From: an uncultured Opitutaceae bacterium
GTDB lineage: Bacteria; Verrucomicrobiota; Verrucomicrobiia; Opitutales; Opitutaceae
Reading direction: 5' to 3'
DNA: 64,000 nt
NCBI GenBank assembly: GCA_951813085.1
Contig: OX638348.1
Coordinates: 4,674,501-4,738,500 of the forward strand
Below the pieces are notes generated by a model, which had not been told where the DNA came from, did not search any database, and saw only the letters and a program-made list of their open reading frames with translations. Position numbers and translations under genes: made by a program. Of the stretch, positions 23,595 to 51,219 are shown in pieces. Positions within the stretch are counted from its first letter, which is position 1. Each line of letters opens with the position of its first letter.

Positions 23595-24159
23595 GTTTTT
23601 AACAGGATACGCCCTGCTTTGCAGGGCTACTTGATAGTCACGCTGTATGCGTGACTTACTTGATTGTATTGTAGTTGCTACTGCTGATTCGGGTTGCATC
23701 CTAGGTCTATGGAAAACGATTCACTAACAGAAAAAATAATTGGGGTGTGCTTTGAGGTTCATAATGAACTGGGCAATGGGTTTGTTGAGAAAGTATATGA
23801 GAATGCTCTGAGGGTGGCGCTTTGTCAGGCAGGATTTCGTGTTGATCAGCAAGTTTCGGTAGATGTTCAATTTCGAGGGGTGACGGTGGGTGAGCACTAT
23901 GCCGACCTAATTGTGAATGAGTCGATAGTGATAGAATTGAAGGCGGTAAGACGATTGCAGCCTGAGCATCAAGCTCAGCTAATAAACTATCTCAAAGCGA
24001 CAGGTATCAGCAGAGGGTTGCTGGTGAACTTCGCTACGACTCGACTGGAGGTTAAACGTGGCGATCTCAGCATAGGGTAGGCGATTCATCAAGTTCCCGC
24101 GTCAGCGGGATCATGTGAGCGAACGTAGAGAGCGCATCCTGTTAAACTAAAACAAAAAA
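23595..24159. mobile_element. Inverted-repeat cassette carrying a GxxExxY gene
   Basis: The left end is GTTTTTAACAGGATACGC (23595-23612). The right end is GCGCATCCTGTTAAAC (24132-24147) followed by AAAACAAAAAA-type sequence to 24159. These are imperfect terminal inverted repeats (shared core TTTAACAGGATRCGC). Inside the left end are two perfect hairpins, CCCTGC-TTT-GCAGGG (23612-23626) and AGTCACGC-TGTAT-GCGTGACT (23636-23656). Inside the right end is CCCGC-GTCA-GCGGG-ATCATG (24096-24114). The only gene inside is the GxxExxY gene. A matching gene-less copy is at 9046-9142. No transposase is present, so any movement would have to be in trans. Confidence 0.55.
23709..24080 (+). CDS. GxxExxY family protein
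   Basis: 123 aa from the ATG at 23709; the in-frame TTG five codons upstream is less likely. The family signature is GNGFVEKVYENAL near residue 23, and the later HYADLIVNESIVIELKAV carries the D...E-x-K pattern of a PD-(D/E)xK nuclease-like fold (about 80-95). The C-terminus (LLVNFATTRLEVKR) is also typical. Members are small, numerous in Verrucomicrobia and related genomes, and of unproven function; nuclease activity is only predicted. This copy is the sole plus-strand gene inside a minus-strand region and is enclosed by inverted repeats and hairpins, suggesting recent insertion. Confidence 0.9.
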   Translation: MENDSLTEKIIGVCFEVHNELGNGFVEKVYENALRVALCQAGFRVDQQVSVDVQFRGVTVGEHYADLIVNESIVIELKAVRRLQPEHQAQLINYLKATGISRGLLVNFATTRLEVKRGDLSIG

Positions 24160-24212: not shown

Positions 24213-25034
24213 TTATCCGTTGATGATGGGGACGAGCTTTTCTTGGCAGTATTCGCCGTCGTGAAGGGTGACGCCGTCAGGATCTTCGATCGCCTTGTCC
24301 GCTTCGTCTTCGCAAATGATCCAACCGTCAAGGTCTTGATCGACGAGCCACTGCGTAATGCCAACGAAATCGACTTCGCCTTCACCCATGAGCGCCCATT
24401 CTGGATTGCCGTCCCAGTCCTTGTAGTGGACGTGGTTTATAAGCGAGCTGAACTCCTTCATTTTGGTGAGCGGATCCATTCCGCCATTGATAATGTGGCC
24501 TACGTCAGGGGTCCAACCCGTGACGCTCGTGTCGAGCCCGTTTAGGATAACGGCGTAGTCTTCCTCAGTTCGATTGATCGAGGTTTCAGGGGAATTCGGA
24601 TGGAATGAGCACTTAAGCCCGGCATCGGTGGCGCGACGCGATACGGCGTTCACGTTTGCGACCAAATTCAGGCGGCGTTGCTCGAGGTCGTGGCGCCCGT
24701 TGGGCATTTGGACCGTGCAAAGAGGCGCTCCTGGGAACTGCTTCAAGGTTTCGATGACCTCATCGGCCTGGCGACGCTCATCCTCCGTTTCTTCGGGATT
24801 ATTCCAGTCGCAAACGAGGGCGATGCCAGCGAGCTTGACGTTGTGCTGGGCAAGCTTTTCGCCGAGCTTTACGGGATCGGTAAGGTCTCCCATCCAGAAG
24901 TGCATCGGTTCGATACCTTCAAAACCTGCCTTTTCGACCATCTCGATCATATGCTCGAGCTTGTTGTCGTAGGCGGCGCCGGTTTCACGCATGAACCAGG
25001 TGTATACTTCTGCTCCTAGTGATATATTAGCCAT
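24213..25034 (-). CDS. Sugar isomerase/epimerase TIM barrel (IolE-like)
   Basis: 273 aa, a xylose-isomerase-like TIM barrel. The metal and substrate residues run in the usual order: Glu in GFEGIEPMHF (about 37-46), SFHPN (about 142), PDVGH (D-x-x-H), HVHYKDWDG, and a late Glu in IICEDE. No signal peptide. Relatives include inosose dehydratase, 2-keto-myo-inositol isomerase and ketose 3-epimerases, and the sequence alone does not separate these. It is the second gene of a pair, 57 bp after the larger TIM barrel, and ends at a clear terminator. It may feed the neighbouring kinase/aldolase operon. Confidence 0.8.
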   Translation of the reverse strand: MANISLGAEVYTWFMRETGAAYDNKLEHMIEMVEKAGFEGIEPMHFWMGDLTDPVKLGEKLAQHNVKLAGIALVCDWNNPEETEDERRQADEVIETLKQFPGAPLCTVQMPNGRHDLEQRRLNLVANVNAVSRRATDAGLKCSFHPNSPETSINRTEEDYAVILNGLDTSVTGWTPDVGHIINGGMDPLTKMKEFSSLINHVHYKDWDGNPEWALMGEGEVDFVGITQWLVDQDLDGWIICEDEADKAIEDPDGVTLHDGEYCQEKLVPIING

Positions 25035-26337: not shown

Positions 26338-27648
26338 CTATTTCCAGTAGCGTTTCGCAGAGGGATGCGTTTCTAGCAGGATTTCCTTGATCGCAATTTT
26401 GTCTCTTCGGGAAATGTGGGAGTAGCCTTCGGGTCGCGTGGCAGGATCTAGAATGCGTTCGATCTCAGGCCAAAGGTAGTCGAGGGCTTCTCGGGGAAGA
26501 TCGTTGAATGTATCCGTGTAGACGATATAGCTGAATGGGTAGCGAAACATGCGCCGGTTCATCCTCAATTGATAGAGCGACCGTCCTTTCGAGTCCTTGG
26601 GCCCGCGTTCCTGGAATTCTGCTGCCATCTCGGATTGGCTTAGGTCGACTTTTGGCAGATCTGCCTCATCGGCAAAGAACATGTATTTCAATACCTTGTC
26701 GCTCGCGTGCTTGATGCGGCGTTTCGTCGAATCGGAAATGGGTTCCTCACGCTTCAAGAGCGCATCCATGACGTGTTGATCGTGAAAGGCGCGTCGCGTC
26801 GCTATCGTCAGGTCGGCGAGGAGCGTGTGCAATTGAGCCTGATGATTGAGGATCAAGTGCGAGACGATATCGCTTCCTAGGGAGGGATATCCTCTTGAGG
26901 GCACGTCTGCGGAGGAGAAGTATGAATTGAATGCGGCTCCATCGGACGTTTCTCGGTAGAGCGCATTCCCCTTGTGAGCGGCCTCCGTATCGGACACGAG
27001 CCATCCGCCCCAACGTTCCGAGAGAGGAGTCGTTTGATCGACGACGCGGGTACCCGCTTTAAAGATGGGCTGACCTGATAGATCCGGGTATACTGATCGA
27101 ACGAGATGGCCGGGGACATCGCGCGTAAATGAGCCACCATGGCATTGCAGGCAGTTATGCGTTTCCCGTATCAGCTTCGGGGGTACGCTATTCATCTCGA
27201 CCGTGTAGAAATTGGTTCCCGTTTCGGGGCTTGGGGCTGAAATTTCGAGAACCTTGGTTCCGGGGACCCAGCCGACGTAGATCTCCTCGTTAAAGTAAAT
27301 GGCCCTGGGATTTTGGGGCCGGATACGGCTTGCTTGCAGGCTCGTTTTTGAAAAGACCAGAGTTTGGGAGGCTGCCGGTATGTCGAACGCCTCTAGAAAC
27401 GGTTCGAGATAGCCGTTGGAGTCAGAGCGCTCCCAGTCCTCCAGATTCTCTGCGTCCGAAAAATAGGCAGCGATCTTGTCGACCGCTTCGCTGTCGTAGT
27501 AGTTGATGGGCTCAGTCTCGTAGAATTTTTGGCTGTACATTGAAGGAGCGATCGCCAAGAGAGCGAAAAGGGCGAGGCCAGGCTTCCAAATTTTTTTTGT
27601 GAGGCGTCCGGCCTGAGACGCCGATTTTGGTGGGTCGCACGCTTGCAT
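26338..27648 (-). CDS. Exported c-type haem protein coupled to the SLOG-SLATT gene
   Basis: 436 aa. A basic N-terminus precedes a hydrophobic export segment (about 23-38). One haem c motif, CLQCH (166-170), follows a THN; no second CxxCH is seen. The rest is helical and soluble, including HLILNHQAQLHTLLADLTIA (possible second haem ligands) and a conserved-looking RMFRYPFSYIVYTDTFNDLP near the C-terminus. I recognise it only as an uncharacterised cytochrome-like protein of the kind found in PVC bacteria. Its ATG begins one base after the TGA of the SLOG-SLATT gene, so the two are translationally coupled. A periplasmic redox protein is an unusual partner for a conflict-system membrane protein. 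Confidence 0.7.
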   Translation of the reverse strand: MQACDPPKSASQAGRLTKKIWKPGLALFALLAIAPSMYSQKFYETEPINYYDSEAVDKIAAYFSDAENLEDWERSDSNGYLEPFLEAFDIPAASQTLVFSKTSLQASRIRPQNPRAIYFNEEIYVGWVPGTKVLEISAPSPETGTNFYTVEMNSVPPKLIRETHNCLQCHGGSFTRDVPGHLVRSVYPDLSGQPIFKAGTRVVDQTTPLSERWGGWLVSDTEAAHKGNALYRETSDGAAFNSYFSSADVPSRGYPSLGSDIVSHLILNHQAQLHTLLADLTIATRRAFHDQHVMDALLKREEPISDSTKRRIKHASDKVLKYMFFADEADLPKVDLSQSEMAAEFQERGPKDSKGRSLYQLRMNRRMFRYPFSYIVYTDTFNDLPREALDYLWPEIERILDPATRPEGYSHISRRDKIAIKEILLETHPSAKRYWK

Positions 27649-27649
27649 C

Positions 27650-29179
27650 TCAGTGTATGTGCAGGTGCCTGACGTTTTGGTACCATTCGGAAACCTCTTG
27701 CAGGAGTCGCCGTTCTACGCCGACAACGGCTTCATAGAAGGAGCTCGGCACGATTAAGATGCTCATCGATTCGCGGCTCCGCTCGAACGCGCTCTTCATT
27801 TCCGAAAACCGCGCTAAGCGCCGATCGATATCAAGCGCGCTCTTGATGGATATCATCAGCATTGAGAGAATCGGAAGTATTATGGTGGATTTGCCCAGCC
27901 AGTCGTTTTTGGTATAATCTGATTCCTGTAGTTGGTCAGTAACGACGGTATGAGCGTGATCGACGTGAGCCTCGCCATGTCCAAAGGAATGCTCTGCCGC
28001 GTAGATGCACGCGGCCACGATGGCGGCGCCGAGGAATACCCAGAAGAGTCGATTTAGCCAGGATTGCGTTGGTCGGAGCGCGTTCACCCGCCGGGTATAG
28101 TACTCGATCTGGTCGTCCACGCGCTGACTCAGGTAGTTGGCTCGGTTCTGCTCCCAATCTATCTCCGGGTCCAATCTGCTGTGAACCAGATTGTACAAGG
28201 GCCGGGCGATTTGGCCAAATTGATAGAAGCTTTCCCAAAGCTGGTCCATTGCGCTTCGGGGGAGGAAGGCTCCGCAAGATTTAAGGCTACGAATCACTTC
28301 GCTCAGTCCTCTCAGCATGAACCATCGTTCGTGAAGCCGCTGGCGTTGAGCGAAAAAGAATACGCAGAGAGCGATGAGCAATAGAATTACTTTTGCAATG
28401 CCCCAGCCAGGGAAGGCGAATCCCAATCCAATGGTTGCGATGATTGTTGCAACCGCGTGAATGGATAAATTGGATACAGATAGGAATCGATGTTGAGGCG
28501 CCGCCTTGCTCGCCTCTCGATCTACGGTTTCCAGAATTTCATCGATTGCGGATTGAGCGTTCGCACGAGCGTCGGCATCTATTGAAACGGAGGCGAACCG
28601 TTCGACTTCCTCTGCGGTTGGATCGGTAAAGGTCGTTTCGAATCGCTCCCAGGCAAGTTCACCGGAATGCGCATGTATCCAACCGAAGGGCAATTTCTTT
28701 GCCTTAGCTGCTTGCACGATTTGAGCAGTGCCTCCGAGACCTCTTTCTTCGCCCCCATCCCAGCAAAAGAGCATCATGTCGGATGCGTTCAAAATATCTA
28801 TGCCGCATTTATAGAAAGCCGCTTCGCGACTGCGCGATCCCTTCAACGACTCGACTGAGATCGCTCCGTCGAGGGCACTATCGAAGCGTTCTCTCCATTC
28901 GGCGGCGATTGCCTCGCGAAACTGATCCACTTCGAAGGGAAGCAAAACATGATAAGGTACGTTCGTTTGAAGGCAGGCTTCCGCCATGAGGATATCCGCG
29001 CCTTTAGCTAGGGAGAGGAAGCACTCAATCGTGCCCTCAACCTTCTTCCCGGCCTCTCCGATGCTGAGCGCGAAGGAGGAGGCGAGCAGCGCTTCGTCCG
29101 CCAGCTCGCGATGGCCAGAGAACCCGATCCTCCATACGGGATGGGGAAAAACGAAGCTGTTGGCGGCGCGCGTACTCAT
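27650..29179 (-). CDS. SLOG-domain protein with SLATT-like four-helix membrane region
   Basis: 509 aa. Residues about 15-170 match a SLOG (LOG/DprA-like nucleotide-binding) domain: IGFSGHREL, AKGADILMAEACL, VPYHVLLPF, and a later LFCWDGGEERGLGGT. Four hydrophobic helices follow in two pairs (about 238-258, 261-278; 376-396, 430-447). After each pair comes a helical stretch typical of SLATT domains (RLHERWFMLRGLSEVIRSL; ERRLLQEVSEWYQN). SLOG-SLATT proteins were proposed to sense a nucleotide signal and perforate the inner membrane in counter-invader systems (Burroughs and co-workers). It is divergent, 95 bp apart, from a channel/TrkA-N/RyR gene, a combination expected for such systems. The function is inferred. 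Confidence 0.75.
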   Translation of the reverse strand: MSTRAANSFVFPHPVWRIGFSGHRELADEALLASSFALSIGEAGKKVEGTIECFLSLAKGADILMAEACLQTNVPYHVLLPFEVDQFREAIAAEWRERFDSALDGAISVESLKGSRSREAAFYKCGIDILNASDMMLFCWDGGEERGLGGTAQIVQAAKAKKLPFGWIHAHSGELAWERFETTFTDPTAEEVERFASVSIDADARANAQSAIDEILETVDREASKAAPQHRFLSVSNLSIHAVATIIATIGLGFAFPGWGIAKVILLLIALCVFFFAQRQRLHERWFMLRGLSEVIRSLKSCGAFLPRSAMDQLWESFYQFGQIARPLYNLVHSRLDPEIDWEQNRANYLSQRVDDQIEYYTRRVNALRPTQSWLNRLFWVFLGAAIVAACIYAAEHSFGHGEAHVDHAHTVVTDQLQESDYTKNDWLGKSTIILPILSMLMISIKSALDIDRRLARFSEMKSAFERSRESMSILIVPSSFYEAVVGVERRLLQEVSEWYQNVRHLHIH

Positions 29180-29274
29180 TCAACGGCACTATTGGGAATT
29201 TTTCGTGAGCTAGAAGCAAAAAAACCGCATAGCGGAGGGTTGACCCGAAGCGGTTGCCTCGCAGTCTGGCAGTG

Positions 29275-31167
29275 ATGGGACTGAGACTCAGGATTTTGGT
29301 GGCGACGATTGGGTTGGCCGCTGCGATTTTGGGCATGACCGGTGTATTCGAGCTACTCGATCCCTCCCTCTCTTTCAAAGCGCGGCTTCTCGAATCAATC
29401 TACCTTTCGCTGCATCTATTCACGATTTCCTATCCGGACTATCTCGTTTATGCGACATCGGATGAAGGGCTAGGATACTCGATCAGCTGGCAATTGCAGA
29501 TTGCCCGATTTATCGCTCCCATCGTTACCGTTACGGCAGCGGTTAGCTTGTTTTCGGCAGTTCTCGAAAAGGGGGTCAAGCGGTTGAAGGTAGCGCTCTT
29601 CTATCGGCAGCATGCGGTTGTATACGGATTCAACCTTCGTTCGAAGTTGATGTGCGAGGATCTTCTCTCGAATGGAAAGAAGGTGATTGTCATTGATCTT
29701 GGCCTGGACGAGCAGGAGCTGGATTGGGCGCGTAAAAAAGGAATCGTTGCTTTTCAGCGTTCTGGAACGGATTCGGAGGCGCCTCGATTGTGCAAGGCGG
29801 AAAAGGCCAAGTATTTGTTCGCTGCCTACGACGACGATGCTTTGAATTTGAAGATCCTCGTCCGCGCCTATCAACGAAATCGCGAAATCTACGAGTCGTT
29901 GTTGGACGATCGGAAAAATTAGCAGCTGATAAATTTTCGACTCATTTTTATGCCCATTTTTCTGAAGCGTCCTTCAAGCGGCTGAAGTTTGGAGGGCAAT
30001 TCTCCAACCTGGACGGTTATTTCAAGCTGTACATTTTCAATGTGTACGATCAATCCGCCAAACGGCTCGTCAAGAAGATCTACCAAGGGTATTCGCAGCG
30101 CGTCCTTTCGGGCGAGCCGATCCACGTCTACTTGTTCGGGCTCGGCGCTTCGGGAGCGGCAATGCTGGAGCAGCTGGTTCGAATGGCTTACTTCAAGAAG
30201 GGGTCTCAGGTGAGAATATCAGTATTCGATGACAAGGTCGAAGACTGGAATCGACTCGTATCGACTTTTCCAATATTGGAGCCATCGTCCGATTCTATAG
30301 CGAACGAAGGCAATGCGCGACTCGCACGGTTGAGAGCTGAAACCTGTTTCCCGGAGATCTCGTTTTATGAGCTCGATCTCGATAGCGAGTCGCTGGTTTC
30401 GGGAAGTGCGCTGGGAGACGATGCGGATGAGACCGAGATTCGCATCGCGGTTCTGTGCCGGAGCGAATCAACGCGCAATTTAGCCCTAGCTGACAGCTTG
30501 GTGCAGCAGCGCCGCTACCCGATCGAGGAGATCTTTGTTCGTTCTGACGAACCCGAATCGGAAATTAGAAAATACGTTCGATCGAAAATGGCGCGCAAGC
30601 GCTTGAGCAGCTTCCCCCCCTCAAGACGAAATTTGCCGATTGGATGCTTTGAGAGAGAATCGGACCGAGCGTCTCGCTCGTGTGATGCACGAGGCCTATT
30701 TGTCGGAGATCCGCGAAAAATCGCCTACGCGGCCTTCCAATGCGTCCTAGGAAAGACTCGATGAATCCTTCAAGGAATCGAATAGAAGAGCTGCGGCGCA
30801 TATCGAGATCAAGTGCGCTCTTCTGGGTTTGAAGGAGTTTGATCTCGAATCGTCCAGGGACCTCAACGAAACGGCGGAAGAGCTGCGGCGAACGCTCAAT
30901 CGTCCTGAGCAGCGCGACGAATTGGAAATGCTCTCTGAATGCGAGCACAATCAATGGTGCGCGGAAAAGCTCCTCGATGGCTGGATTCCTTGTCCCGATC
31001 GGAACGATGCCTTGAAGCATCACCCAAATCTGGTGCCTTGGGACCTCTATGAATTGACGATGAACGATGTCTTTTCGGGATTTGCTTCTTTGACCGAAGA
31101 GGACAAATCCAAAGACCGCCACAACATAACGAAGATTCCGGACTACTTGGAGGAAATCGCAAATTAG
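29275..31167 (+). pseudogene. Channel-like / TrkA-N / RyR-domain protein, interrupted
   Basis: The start is the ATG at 29275; an in-frame TTG at 29254 is less likely. Part 1 (to about 29914) has two membrane helices around a pore-like segment (residues 5-28 and 79-96), then a TrkA-N/RCK nucleotide-binding fold (VVYGFNLRSKL, KVIVIDLG). Part 2 (about 29917-30614) has a second Rossmann-like fold (HVYLFGLGASGAAML). Part 3 (about 30621-31167) is a ryanodine-receptor (RyR) domain (ESNRRAAAHI, EHNQWCAEKLLDGW, HPNLVPWDLYEL, DRHNITKIP). Lesions: A5 for A6 at 29914-29918, C7 for C6 at 30614-30620, and a TAG at 30748-30750 where Trp is expected (S-[W]-E-R-L). Restored, it would be about 630 aa. It is probably a recently disabled partner of the SLOG-SLATT gene. 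Confidence 0.75.
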
Positions 31168-31227
31168 GGTGAGATCCGGGAGCTCTAGTCGGGACTGGAC
31201 TATTGGTGATCCTGAGGGACACGATAG

Positions 31228-32775
31228 CTAGAGAGCGGGTCCCCAGCGAAGCGTTTGCGTGCGATCGATGACGATTTCCGTATCGTTGGATTGAGCAGGT
31301 CCGGTTCGGCTCGTGCCGCGGGCGATTACCCACGTTAGTCTTTGAGTGAGATGTTCGACGATTTCCGGATATTGGCTGGCAACATCGGTGGTCTCGGCGA
31401 CGTCTCGATCCAAATTGTAAAGCTCTACTCGTCGGGGCTTGCCTCGGTCGTTGTTCAAGTTGCCGGTAGCATTGAGAAAAACGATTTTCCAGAGGCCTTC
31501 TTGATAGGCGAATTCACCGTGAGTGGATTGGCTAATTACGTGATCGCGCATGGGTGGCTCTGATTCGCCCAAAAGCTGGGGAAGAAAGCTGAGACTGTCT
31601 TCGGCCGCGTTTTGCGGGAGGGATTCGCCAAGCAGCTCAGCTACGGTGGCGAAGGTGTCATTCAGGCTCAGGATTTGGTCGCTTTGCGAACCAGCGTCTA
31701 CTTTCCCCGGCCAGCGCGCCAGATAAGGAACGCGGTGCCCGCCCTCCCAAACATTGCTCTTGTGCCCTCGAAATTCCCCGCTGGGCTTGTGGCCCGCGTC
31801 GAGCAGTTCCTCAAGACCGGTGTAGTGGGAGTGCCCGTTGTCGGCGGTGAAGATGACGAGTGTTTCGTCCGCTATTCCGGCGTCGTCCACCGCCTTGATG
31901 ACCTGACCTGCGGACCAATCGGTTTCCATTACGAAATCAGCGATCGGGGCAATGCCGCTCTTCCCCTTGAATTGGGCTGACGGCACCACCGGCTCGTGCG
32001 GCGAGGTCATGGAGAAGAATAGGAAGAAGGGATCATTTTCTTTAGATTTCTCATGTACGTAGTCCACGGCTCGTCGAGTGATTTCAGGAAGGATTTCGTC
32101 GAATTTCCATTCGGGAGCGATAGGCGATCCTGCGAATCCCTGTGGCATGACCGTTCCTTCATTGGGATCGTATTCGTATTTTTCGGACGGCTGAATCGTT
32201 ACACGGTCGTTTTCGATGTAGGTGAAAGGAGCGAAATTGGGGACGTGCGTCCCGAAGTAGTAGTCGAACCCACGCGTAATGGGTCCATCCTCTATAGGCT
32301 TCGTGAAATCCCAATTCAATTTCATGAGGCCATTGCGCTTCTCGACCATTTGGCTAGGTTGGTCCCCCGCCCAATTCCAACCGAGATGCCATTTCCCGAT
32401 ACATGCGGTATCGTATCCACTTTCTTGTAGAAATCCGGGTAGGGTGAGTCGATCCTTCGCGATAAGGGGTGGCTCGTAGCAGGCGATGACCCATTCCTGC
32501 AGGCGCGTTCTCCAAGCGTAGCGTCCCGTGAGCAAGCCATAGCGGGAAGGCGTACAGCAGGCGGTGTTGGCATGGGCATTGGTAAATCGCTTGGATTCCG
32601 AGCTGAACTTATCCAAGTACGGAGTCGCAATTTTGTTGTCAGGATAGTGAGCCTGAATATCGCCGACCCCGAAATCGTCAGCCAAAATGATGACGACATT
32701 GGGTCGCTCGGCCTGGGCGGAGACAGCTAAGCCAAACAGAAGAGAACAGAGGATAATAAAGGATTTGGATATCAC
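31228..32775 (-). CDS. Exported arylsulfatase
   Basis: 515 aa with a signal peptide ending VSAQA-ER. Motifs: IILADDFGVGDIQ (metal Asp pair), formylglycine signature CTPSRYGLLTGRYAWR, GKWHLGWN, FTADNGHSH and WEGGHRVPYLARWPG. It is closest in type to the sulfatase at 15770-17239, sharing the TGRY-x-WR segment and the RVPFLARW-like block. It is followed on the same strand by the end of no other gene; the upstream esterase at 32829 is 53 bp away and may share a transcript. A sulfated glycan is the likely substrate, cleaved outside the cytoplasm. Confidence 0.9.
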   Translation of the reverse strand: MISKSFIILCSLLFGLAVSAQAERPNVVIILADDFGVGDIQAHYPDNKIATPYLDKFSSESKRFTNAHANTACCTPSRYGLLTGRYAWRTRLQEWVIACYEPPLIAKDRLTLPGFLQESGYDTACIGKWHLGWNWAGDQPSQMVEKRNGLMKLNWDFTKPIEDGPITRGFDYYFGTHVPNFAPFTYIENDRVTIQPSEKYEYDPNEGTVMPQGFAGSPIAPEWKFDEILPEITRRAVDYVHEKSKENDPFFLFFSMTSPHEPVVPSAQFKGKSGIAPIADFVMETDWSAGQVIKAVDDAGIADETLVIFTADNGHSHYTGLEELLDAGHKPSGEFRGHKSNVWEGGHRVPYLARWPGKVDAGSQSDQILSLNDTFATVAELLGESLPQNAAEDSLSFLPQLLGESEPPMRDHVISQSTHGEFAYQEGLWKIVFLNATGNLNNDRGKPRRVELYNLDRDVAETTDVASQYPEIVEHLTQRLTWVIARGTSRTGPAQSNDTEIVIDRTQTLRWGPAL

Positions 32776-32828: not shown

Positions 32829-33770
32829 TTATTCAATAGATTTCAGGAATTTCTCCACACGTGGCTGCCCCTTCAGGTATCCAAGCGAGTTTAAAAACGT
32901 GTCCATCTCGGTTACAGTGGCGACGAACATCGCATTCTCCGCACGACCGTAGTTGAAAAACCCATGCGGCTGCCCTTCGTAGGTTAAGAGCTCGCATCGA
33001 TTTCCTTTGGCTTTGGATTTTTCGGCAAATAGTTTGGCGGATTCGATGGGAACGGTGGTATCCGCGTTTCCATGAAAAATAATCGCCGGAGGCTGATTCG
33101 CGCTAATGTTGTGGTAAGGCGATAGGGATTCAGGAGATACGCCCATTCGATCTTTGATAGAGGCGACTCGTTCACTAGGAATGGGGTACTTCTTTTCGAC
33201 CGGAGCTACGACGAGGGCTGGGTTGAACAAGCAAAGAGCATTAGGAACGGCGCTAACCGAATGGTCGTCTTGCGGATCGTCAAGTCCATCAATCGTCCCA
33301 AGAGCTCCCGCGAGGTGGCCGCCCGCCGATCCACCCCCAGCGGCGATTCGGTCAGGATCGATCCCAAGTCGTTTGGCGTTGGAACGCACGTAGCGCATGG
33401 CCGATTTCGCATCTTGGAAACAGGAGATTGCTTTAGTGCCATGCCGTCCTGAAACGCGATACTCCACCGTGATCGCGACCATTCCGCGCGATGCGAGATA
33501 CTTGCATTGATTGATAAATTGCTCCGGTGTACCACTCCTCCAGCCGCCGCCGAAATAGAAGACGATGGCGGGTCGGGACTGATTTTCGCGGTGATCCTCG
33601 GGCGTGAAAATATGCAAAGGCAAAGAGACATCCCCAACGGTCTTGTAGATTTCTGTCGACGCGCCGGGTAAGGTCTCGGGCGCGGGCGTAACCTGTTGCT
33701 GATTTTGCCCGTGGGCGAGGGACGCTGCCACGATCGCGCCGATCGTAAGGATCAAGGGGTAGAGTTTCAT
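32829..33770 (-). CDS. Exported alpha/beta-hydrolase (esterase)
   Basis: 313 aa with a signal peptide (MKLYPLILTIGAIVAASLAHG). The catalytic features are FGGGWRSG (oxyanion hole, with Phe in place of the usual His), GGGSAGG (nucleophile Ser), HGNADTTVP (Asp) and GQPHGFF (His). It is a paralogue of the enzyme at 9145-10047. The pairing with a downstream sulfatase suggests removal of acyl groups from a sulfated polysaccharide. It is divergent from the Gfo/Idh/MocA gene. Confidence 0.85.
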   Translation of the reverse strand: MKLYPLILTIGAIVAASLAHGQNQQQVTPAPETLPGASTEIYKTVGDVSLPLHIFTPEDHRENQSRPAIVFYFGGGWRSGTPEQFINQCKYLASRGMVAITVEYRVSGRHGTKAISCFQDAKSAMRYVRSNAKRLGIDPDRIAAGGGSAGGHLAGALGTIDGLDDPQDDHSVSAVPNALCLFNPALVVAPVEKKYPIPSERVASIKDRMGVSPESLSPYHNISANQPPAIIFHGNADTTVPIESAKLFAEKSKAKGNRCELLTYEGQPHGFFNYGRAENAMFVATVTEMDTFLNSLGYLKGQPRVEKFLKSIE

Positions 33771-33893
33771 AGCTGCACGCTACGGGGGCGCTCTCGTGAA
33801 TGGAAGCAAATTTGAGGGCGCGAATATTGGCCATCGTCGCGACCGCAGATTATTTGAGTTGTACGATTCGAGCGATTGGATCATTGGATAGAG

Positions 33894-49732: not shown

Positions 49733-51219
49733 TTCGGGAACGCTCGGTGGCGGGAAGTCGCCTTCCGCCTTTGGTGATGGGGTCCAGGCCCCTATCCAGT
49801 TTTGAGTCGTAGTCCAAATTCTTGGTGGGGATCTTGGCGCCTACGGAGGCGAGATGATCGTTTAGCCGCTGATGAATCTCTTCTGTCAGCTCCGGATACG
49901 TAGCGCTGAGATCGTTGGACTCGCCGATGTCGTTCTCGAGATCGAATAGCTAGAGCGTTTCGGTATCGTACTCCTTACGGAGCTTGTATTTTCCGAGTCG
50001 AATGGAGGCTTGCGGATACACGCCCTTGAAATCCCTGTAGCGAGGATAGTACCACACGAATTCCTCGGTGGGTCGATTTATAGACCCGGTCCCGGAATTC
50101 TTAAGCACGTTTTCGAGGCTACCTCCATCCTGATTGTCGGGAGGCGTCTCGTCTATTTCCAGCAAGTCTGCGATGGTCGCGAAAAAGTCGGATCCGTTGA
50201 CGGGGGCATCGCATTGCGTGTCCGCTGCGATGCCAAGTCCGTGAACGATGAGAGGAACGCGAATCCCGCCTTCCCAGGTATGCGTTTTCCCCTTCCTCAG
50301 TGGAGCATTGCTAGTTGGCGTACCCGATTGCTGGAACTCGCCCCCGTTATCGGACGTGTAGATGAAGTAGGTGCTGTCGTCTAGCTCGAGATTCTCCAGG
50401 GTATCGAGCAAGGCAGAAAGCGATTGGTCCAGGTTCTCGGTCATTGCAGCGTATGCCGCGTCTTTATGGCGTGTACCCGGCTCCAGATTGGCGTATTTCT
50501 CATTATAGGCGGCTCCTGCGTACACAGGCGTGTGTACCGCATAGTGCGAGACGATGAGCAGAAACGGTTTTTCGGTTTCCGCCTGGTCTTTGAGAAAGTC
50601 CACCGACTTGCGCGTTACCTCCTGAATTCTCTTGGGATCGGGATCGTTTTGGCGTCCCTCGGTATTCGTGGTGGGCCCGTCGTGAATGTCGTACCCGTGA
50701 ACCGATGGGTTCTTCGGCCCCATATGCCATTTGCCAAAATGGGCCGTAGCGTAGTCAGGCCGATGCTCCTTTATGAACTCGCCAATGGTGATTTCCTCCT
50801 CGGGCAATCCGACGATTGGCAGGTGAACGTTCAATGGCTTGTTCAGGTAGAAGTAATTGTAGAAAGGTTCGATGAACCCCCGGCGTGCCCGGGTTCACAT
50901 CGTAGATATCGGTCGTTCCCAAGCGGGCAGGGCTCTTGCCTGTCTGAATGCTCATTCGGGTTGAAGAGCAGTTGGGGTGGGGCGAATAAGCCTGGGAAAA
51001 GCGCATGCTTTGGCGGGCCAGTCGCTCCAAAGCAGGCGTTTGGTAGAAATCGCTTCTTGAATCGCTCCGATTCTTGTCCATAAGAACCGAAGTGCCGTTC
51101 CATCCTTGATCGTCCGCGAGAAAGAGAATGACATTTGGGCCCTTGGCCGCGCTCAACGAGAGAGAGGACAGCGCGATGAACAAAAGCCACAACCGGGTTT
51201 TCGTAAGTTTACGAGACAT
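49713..51219 (-). pseudogene. Sulfatase pseudogene (frameshift plus nonsense codon)
   Basis: The ATG at 51219 starts a signal peptide (LWLLFIALSSLSLSAA) and an N-terminal sulfatase core with LFLADDQGWNG and the formylglycine motif CSSTRMSIQTG. One extra base in a C5 run (50877-50881, plus-strand view) breaks the frame just after NPGTPG. Removing it joins smoothly to FIEPFYNYFYLNKPLNVHLP and the rest of the core (GKWHMGP, YTSDNGGEF, WEGGIRVPLI). A TAG at 49950-49952 then interrupts an otherwise normal C-terminus (ETL-stop-LFDLENDIGE...). Two independent lesions suggest a genuine pseudogene, although the indel alone could be a sequencing error. The intact form would be about 500 aa. Confidence 0.85.

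Follow-up and report, generated by a model that had tools for sequence, protein, structure and literature searches.

Two putative effectors of TIR-type signalling, a SLOG-SLATT protein and an interrupted RyR-domain channel, in an uncultured Opitutaceae genome

The window analysed here is the whole 64,000-nucleotide stretch at positions 4674501-4738500 of the single-contig, 4.85-Mb genome of an uncultured Opitutaceae bacterium (GCA_951813085.1, contig OX638348.1). It carries a cassette of two divergent genes, one for a SLOG-SLATT membrane protein and one for a two-transmembrane (2TM) channel ending in a ryanodine receptor (RyR) domain. On balance, we favour the view that these are two stranded effectors of TIR-type immune signalling, which would be gated by nucleotides derived from nicotinamide adenine dinucleotide (NAD) and would act through a putative pore. 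The channel gene is interrupted, relatives of both genes often lie near TIR, nSTAND1, DUF4062 or patatin genes, and the cassette is absent from genome G481 of the same genus. An initial annotation had instead joined both genes and an adjacent gene for a single-haem protein into one conflict module. Below, G and L numbers denote the genomes and loci used for comparison; coordinates are collected in Table 1.

In a blastn comparison of the window with locus L220 of G481, the alignment ended at 27522 and restarted at 31227. G481 keeps the gene order on both sides of this gap, namely the genes at 24213 and 25092 and the haem gene (71%) on one side and the sulfatase gene at 31228 (81%), the esterase gene at 32829 (70%) and the genes at 33876 and 34826 on the other, and carries another sulfatase gene between the equivalents of the haem gene and sulfatase 31228. 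Genome G568 keeps the haem gene together with 25092 and 24213, with different genes beyond the haem gene. In G223 and G489, the haem gene is reduced at this position to a C-terminal remnant containing stop codons (L089:9783-10226 and L225:9629-9877); G223 has lost the 5' part of the gene plus whatever lay beyond it, and G489 looks alike. The difference between the window genome and its relatives may be an insertion in the former or a loss in the latter. SLOG-SLATT matches occurred in 20 of 288 genomes of the phylum, partial matches included, and in 1 of 11 genomes of the genus, that of the window alone.

Table 1. Features of the cassette and the adjoining haem gene (window coordinates).
Feature	Position	Strand	Evidence or remark
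Single-haem protein gene, 436 aa, CXXCH at residues 166-170	26338..27648	-	Resident bystander outside the cassette; conserved in position in G481 and G568; reduced to a remnant in G223 and G489
Two-gene cassette, no counterpart in same-genus G481	27523..31226		blastn, window versus L220
SLOG-SLATT gene, single open frame, 509 aa	27650..29179	-	Open reading frame call, Pfam, NCBIfam, alignments
SLOG-superfamily-like domain, ~residues 15-175; motifs GFSGHR, AKGAD, RGLGGTA	28655..29137	-	Conserved columns; weak Pfam matches of relatives
Transmembrane pair 1, residues 232-277, first SLATT-like unit	28349..28486	-	Pfam, NCBIfam, hydropathy
Transmembrane pair 2, residues 378-445, second SLATT-like unit, His-rich insert between helices	27845..28048	-	Pfam, alignment, hydropathy
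Divergent intergenic stretch, 95 bp	29180..29274		Measured from reading-frame ends
2TM-RCK-RCK-RyR channel gene, disrupted by two frame changes and an in-frame stop	29275..31167	+	Reading frames, profile search, alignment to L269
Channel piece 1: two transmembrane helices and first Rossmann (RCK/TrkA-N) domain	29275..29898	+	52% identity to L269 residues 1-208; TrkA_N 3e-8
Channel piece 2: second Rossmann-like domain	29925..30617	+	46% identity to L269 residues 218-448
Channel piece 3: linker and RyR domain	30607..31161	+	47% identity to L269 residues 445-629; RyR PF02026 5.6e-9

The channel gene combines a TrkA_N domain and two transmembrane (TM) segments, detected by Pfam and hydropathy, with a RyR domain in piece 3 that scored 36.6 bits against a cut-off of 27.4. 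The channel-family profile matched animal RyR repeats and RyR1 (2e-29), TrkA, the MthK structure 3rbz over channel residues 12-188, which comprise the TM and first RCK part, and 4gx0 ('TrkA domain protein'), which we take to be GsuK. The TrkA-N and RyR domains named in the initial annotation are thus both present; that it is one open gene did not hold, and the interruption had been missed. On the + strand, the gene is read as three open reading frames (ORFs) in two frames (29254-29922, 29790-30764 and 30829-31167). An intact 636-aa relative, L269, is collinear with them over residues 1-629 in frames 3, 2 and 3; searching the genome with the family profile placed one in-frame TAG in the last part. 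Together these results give two frame changes and one stop. The window copy looks broken and, judging from its sequence, probably no longer works; intact copies are present in related genomes.

These breaks could also be assembly errors in a working gene, and it speaks for this that a second gene in the window, a sulfatase gene at 49950-51219, likewise reads as two frames and that the ligand-contact residues are kept in piece 3. We consider it rather improbable, because the gene has three distinct lesions in a span of 1.9 kb, a stop codon among them, and because six nearby window genes with G223 orthologues each read as a single open frame.

Phage RyR-domain proteins were reported in a 2026 preprint to bind 2'cADPR and 3'cADPR, isomers of cyclic ADP-ribose (cADPR), in 6 of 8 homologues tested, with H75, W78, H100 and D117 as the ligand contacts of RyDEP (PMC13232231). 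In 12 channel sequences, the equivalents of these residues, matched by pattern and spacing without an alignment of RyDEP itself, were H in 12, W in 12 (as H-x-x-W), the second H in 10 and D in 12. The spacing (3, 25, 17) is that of RyDEP in L095, L236, L094, L096 and a protein of an Arcobacter plasmid; the window's own clade has an insertion before D, and window piece 3 keeps H, W, H and D, the D following the insertion. Since the contact residues are kept across the whole RyR domain family (PMC13232231), their retention does not single out this channel. RyR domains were found in 15 of 288 phylum genomes; channel members are rare, with 8 of 337 phylum genomes matched at 1e-40, a count that includes the interrupted window copy and six genomes that supplied rows of the query.

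Uninterrupted channel genes were present at 11 loci of the phylum (L093-L098, L236, L237, L238, L269 and L279). Those of L237 and L238 run into a contig end and lack their N-terminus, and that of L098 is a distant member; L270 (G879), a region picked up with the RyR profile, gave neither a channel call in a single frame nor a match to any other profile and lies outside the 11. A TIR gene was found in the region of eight. The channel genes most closely related to that of the window, those of L237, L238 and L269, each converge on a TIR gene as the next gene, at a gap of 4 bp in L269. The convergent TIR proteins have 556-561 aa (L269:11256-12926, L237:2215-3900, L238:1832-3517), match TIR_2 at 1.7e-23 or better, have a single TM segment (residues 167-185 in L269, where it was measured) and end in a repeated part, which in L237 and L238 weakly matches PPC. 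PADLOC models of ThsB matched the L269 and L237 proteins weakly (1e-5). The TIR-TM-repeat layout of these three proteins is like a mirror image of Toll-like receptors. In G489 (L236), the row is TIR-DUF4062, nSTAND1 and channel, and by gene order it is the same in the sister genome G223 (L095). Outside the phylum, the Arcobacter plasmid CP146529.1 has adjoining TrkA_N and RyR ORFs that are collinear with the channel profile (96-368 and 388-562) and are immediately followed by a DUF4062 gene; a SLATT gene lies ~9 kb off, surrounded by restriction genes. RyR domains also stand at the C-terminus of ~900-aa proteins without a channel part (L099:7309-10119, L100:8088-10901, L101:1631-4489); by eye, DUF4062-like or TIR-like genes adjoin those of L099 and L100.

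The SLOG-SLATT protein has four TM segments by hydropathy, arranged in two pairs (232-250 and 259-277; 378-396 and 427-445), as has its relative L115. Pfam SLATT_1 matched residues 349-395 at 26.6 bits against a cut-off of 26.3, a narrow and partial match covering profile positions 1-47 of 122; SLATT_3 matched residues 226-299 below threshold, and NCBIfam SLATT_1 matched two stretches below its cut-off (37.2 versus 41). Pfam SLATT_1 was also matched by 13 of the 14 rows of the family alignment, one row of which (L006) is a wrong-frame row. In the N-terminal part, the motifs GFxGHR, AxGxD and GxGGT are kept across the family. Pfam scans of 27 relatives gave Nuc_deoxyrib_tr in 11 (best 2.3e-5), cpYpsA in eight, YAcAr in two, and DprA and YpsA in one each, all weak; we take Nuc_deoxyrib_tr, cpYpsA and YAcAr to share the SLOG fold. 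The best PDB match was a nucleoside deoxyribosyltransferase at 0.051. These similarities point to membership in the SLOG superfamily, short of proof. Thus, of the initially proposed fusion of SLOG to a four-helix SLATT region, the SLATT part and the four TM segments stand, and the SLOG part came back through weak matches of relatives. The possibility that the SLOG part is an enzyme with a catalytic Glu after GGT found no support; this position is E in 17, D in 13 and Q in 2 of 32 sequences, and Q in the window.

The neighbourhoods of SLOG-SLATT genes were surveyed in 76 regions, 20 from the phylum sample and 56 from a scan of named genomes, the latter mostly Opitutae or Opitutaceae with four Proteobacteria (L134, L143, L147 and L178). 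Removal of three duplicates and of eight regions without a match above 180 bits left 65 loci. Profile matches to TIR, nSTAND1, DUF4062 or patatin were found at 40 of these 65 loci versus 0 of 29 haem control loci (Fisher p 1.5e-9), the control having been reduced from 30 regions by dropping L105, in which no haem ORF was called. By family, TIR matches were present at 36 loci, nSTAND1 at 17, patatin at four and DUF4062 at three; they lay within 1 kb of the SLOG-SLATT gene at 26 loci and within 5 kb at 39. When the proteins were grouped at 60% identity, 7 of 10 groups had such a neighbour. A compact row of SLOG-SLATT, patatin and nSTAND1 (~2100 aa) genes occurs in two genomes (L120:9116-18099 and L122:1796-10671), and the nSTAND1 gene of L120 has DUF4062 at its start, just under the cut-off. 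Relatives of the SLOG-SLATT and the TrkA-N/RyR channel genes are therefore frequent in conflict-type loci, in line with the link to conflict systems suggested initially. SLATT, SLOG and RyR were reportedly described as conflict domains by Burroughs and co-workers in 2015.

We believe that in a working system an invader would switch on an NADase, a TIR protein or perhaps a TIR-like DUF4062 protein, which would turn NAD into ADP-ribose (ADPR) or a cADPR isomer. The nucleotide would then bind the SLOG domain of the SLOG-SLATT protein or the RyR domain of the 2TM-RCK channel, and the bound effector would open an inner-membrane pore, by which the infected cell would be stopped. For the individual steps, the SLOG domain of ThsA has been described as binding 3'cADPR (PMC11204291, PMC10022894), SLATT has been predicted to be a nucleotide-responsive pore (PMC7159879) and DUF4062 has been described as a TIR-like NADase (PMC13174449). 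A nucleotide-gated pore, the mechanism proposed at the outset, is thus retained as the best candidate. In the window genome, the SLOG-SLATT protein would be left as a single effector, at most answering a signal made elsewhere. TIR_2 scored over its cut-off elsewhere in the genome at 2.276, 3.751 and 1.890 Mb, and no nSTAND1 match over cut-off was found in the genome. The TIR domain at 2.276 Mb is 47-50% identical over 133-143 residues to the TIR domains paired with the channel in L237, L238 and L269, and in this gene it is followed by four TM segments; there was no channel-profile match within the surrounding 20 kb. This TIR-4TM gene is a candidate partner in trans, no more.

A more specific proposal, which we put forward tentatively as possible but less than even in probability, is an immune unit of two genes: a TIR protein anchored in the membrane would make a cADPR-type signal, and this signal would directly open the channel through its RyR domain. 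The window would then hold a decayed channel copy beside a SLOG-SLATT protein reading the same class of signal. In this unit we would place the repeated C-terminal segment of the TIR-TM protein outside the cytoplasm, a placement of our own.

Several observations weigh against an effector role in TIR-type signalling. No match to the TIR, nSTAND1, DUF4062 or patatin profiles was found in the 64-kb window, which the initial annotation had overlooked, and PADLOC returned no match for the window proteins, one intact RyR channel and two SLOG-SLATT relatives. No TIR gene was found around the channel in L094, L097 and L279, of which the first and the last are close to a contig end. The TIR genes of L093 and L098 are separated from the channel gene by ~3-4 kb that holds other ORFs. 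As L237, L238 and L269 form one close group and L095 and L236 another, we count TIR genes in 5 of 8 lineages by our own grouping. At 25 of the 65 SLOG-SLATT loci there is no such neighbour; some contigs in this survey are short. The neighbour profiles were seeded partly from the same loci; the TIR and nSTAND1 seeds lie over Pfam cut-offs, one DUF4062 seed is just under and two are unconfirmed, and one of the two patatin seeds was unscanned. The SLOG assignment is weak, and the Pfam scan of the window SLOG-SLATT protein by itself gave no SLOG-type match. The K+ filter motif T-x-G-Y/F-G is absent from all nine channel N-termini, the window's included (two more sequences are cut by a contig end), so K+ selectivity is not to be assumed and an open pore is an inference. 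From the literature, DUF4062 proteins are described in PMC13174449 as acting by NAD depletion, not signalling, and a membrane ThsA in PMC11204291 as reading ADPR and IAD, not cADPR isomers.

The two effectors might alternatively belong together as a dedicated pair, with both pores opened by one signal. They are divergent and 95 bp apart, as initially described (from the SLOG-SLATT gene to the channel ATG at 29275), both families accompany TIR-type genes, and the stretch absent from G481 spans these two genes. Such a pair seems unlikely to us, as the RyR-channel profile had no match in the 76 SLOG-SLATT loci, which leaves the pairing to the window genome only, and one partner is interrupted. 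We give still less credence to the idea that both genes encode ordinary ion-homeostasis channels under RCK-type regulation, with no immune role and with TIR and STAND neighbours that reflect accessory islands. The RCK/TrkA domains, the MthK and 4gx0 matches and the loci without immune-type neighbours (25 of 65 for SLOG-SLATT, 3 of 11 for RyR) agree with it; the missing K+ filter, the patchy distribution of both families across the phylum and TIR, nSTAND1 or DUF4062 genes as direct neighbours, which recur over several lineages and beyond this phylum, speak against it. The three-gene module of the initial annotation, with the haem protein as its periplasmic component, is hardly credible: the 1-bp gap and shared - strand of the haem and SLOG-SLATT genes are borne out by the ORF ends, but the haem-family profile had no match in the 76 SLOG-SLATT loci, none of the 29 haem loci lies near TIR, STAND or patatin genes, genomes of the same genus have the haem gene at this position but no cassette, and a SLOG-SLATT gene occurs in just one genome of the genus.

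We conclude that the haem gene is a resident bystander and not part of the cassette, because other genomes of the same genus retain it in the absence of the SLOG-SLATT and channel genes and because, outside the window, members of its family were never found next to these genes. In everything examined, no other haem homologue adjoined a SLOG-SLATT gene, the outcome that the initial annotation had named as refuting its haem part. Close spacing by itself had made this bystander resemble a member of an immune operon. Haem matches occurred in 24 of 288 phylum genomes and in 77 of 372 genomes of the order, the family measuring ~430 aa. Both haem and SLOG-SLATT matches were found in 8 of the 288 genomes, the window genome included; in each of the other seven they are on separate contigs or at a distance above 1 Mb, where draft contigs could hide adjacency. 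The initial description of an exported single-haem protein holds for the haem site, with one CXXCH per protein in all 26 aligned family members; export was judged by eye, and the hydropathy scan flagged no segment. The 26 members gave no credible Pfam or NCBIfam match (best Pfam 0.011, with unrelated names), and their profile gave no credible PDB match.

Among known systems, the window SLOG-SLATT protein resembles SLATT effectors (Pfam SLATT families; DUF4231) in that 2TM SLATT units are fused to a SLOG-like domain and its relatives adjoin TIR, STAND and patatin genes. It differs in having two SLATT-like TM pairs per chain with a His-rich insert between TM3 and TM4, and, unlike the SLATT effectors of nucleotide-signalled systems, the window yielded no signal-making gene. 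Thoeris pairs a TIR protein, ThsB, with a ThsA of SIR2-SLOG or TM-macro type; the TIR gene beside an effector with a nucleotide-sensing domain is shared by the relatives described here, and TM-macro ThsA has likewise been proposed to act on the membrane (PMC11204291). The sensor differs, being RyR on a 2TM-RCK channel or SLOG on SLATT, and the window proteins have neither SIR2 nor macro domains in Pfam and PADLOC scans, with no TIR-profile match in the window. RCK-gated 2TM channels (MthK; 4gx0) share the order TM1-linker-TM2 followed by two Rossmann/RCK-like domains, whereas the present family lacks the filter motif and has an extra C-terminal RyR domain. The phage RyDEP and RyR-domain sponges share PF02026 and the ligand-contact residues kept in most channel members; they degrade or soak up the signal on behalf of the phage (PMC13232231), whereas RyR on a bacterial channel would read it. 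Swarozyc/DUF4062 TIR-like NADases (PMC13174449) are related through the DUF4062 genes that adjoin the channel relatives L236 and L274 (Pfam); the window has no DUF4062 match, and the terms SLATT and SLOG are absent from PMC13174449.

The kinds of parts are already known, and the pairing of a TIR gene with a RyR channel is the interesting part, because the RyR domains keep most of the residues that contact a cADPR isomer in the phage RyR protein. Among the literature matches listed (titles and abstract openings, with most subscription journals outside the scope), no paper dealt with a TIR gene paired with a RyR-domain channel in bacteria. If true, a RyR channel opened by a TIR product would provide a simple setting in which to test whether a channel-borne RyR domain reads cADPR isomers. 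It would be the bacterial equivalent of the cADPR-to-RyR-channel link proposed for animals, and it would add a sensor type, RyR on an RCK channel, to TIR-linked immune effectors. For the animal channels, the phage data are said to support future studies of the cADPR-RyR interaction (PMC13232231). Whether a signal made from NAD opens a channel of ryanodine-receptor type in bacteria can be tested on the intact relatives.

A mobile-element origin was also considered and rejected. The window contains no tRNA, and the cassette borders show no long repeat (best direct 8 bp, inverted 10 bp) and no marked G+C shift. The haem protein had no plasmid match and no relative was found in viral contigs, the channel had no match in phages, and the plasmid matches of the SLOG-SLATT protein were two records with ~30% coverage, in the SLOG part only. 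Elsewhere in the window, a small gene, presumably of the GxxExxY type, is 72% conserved but inverted within the genus (window 23694-24080, +, versus L220:6827-7198, -). The sulfatase gene at 49950-51219, on the - strand, consists of two overlapping frames of 294 and 154 aa and is the second apparently interrupted gene in the window.

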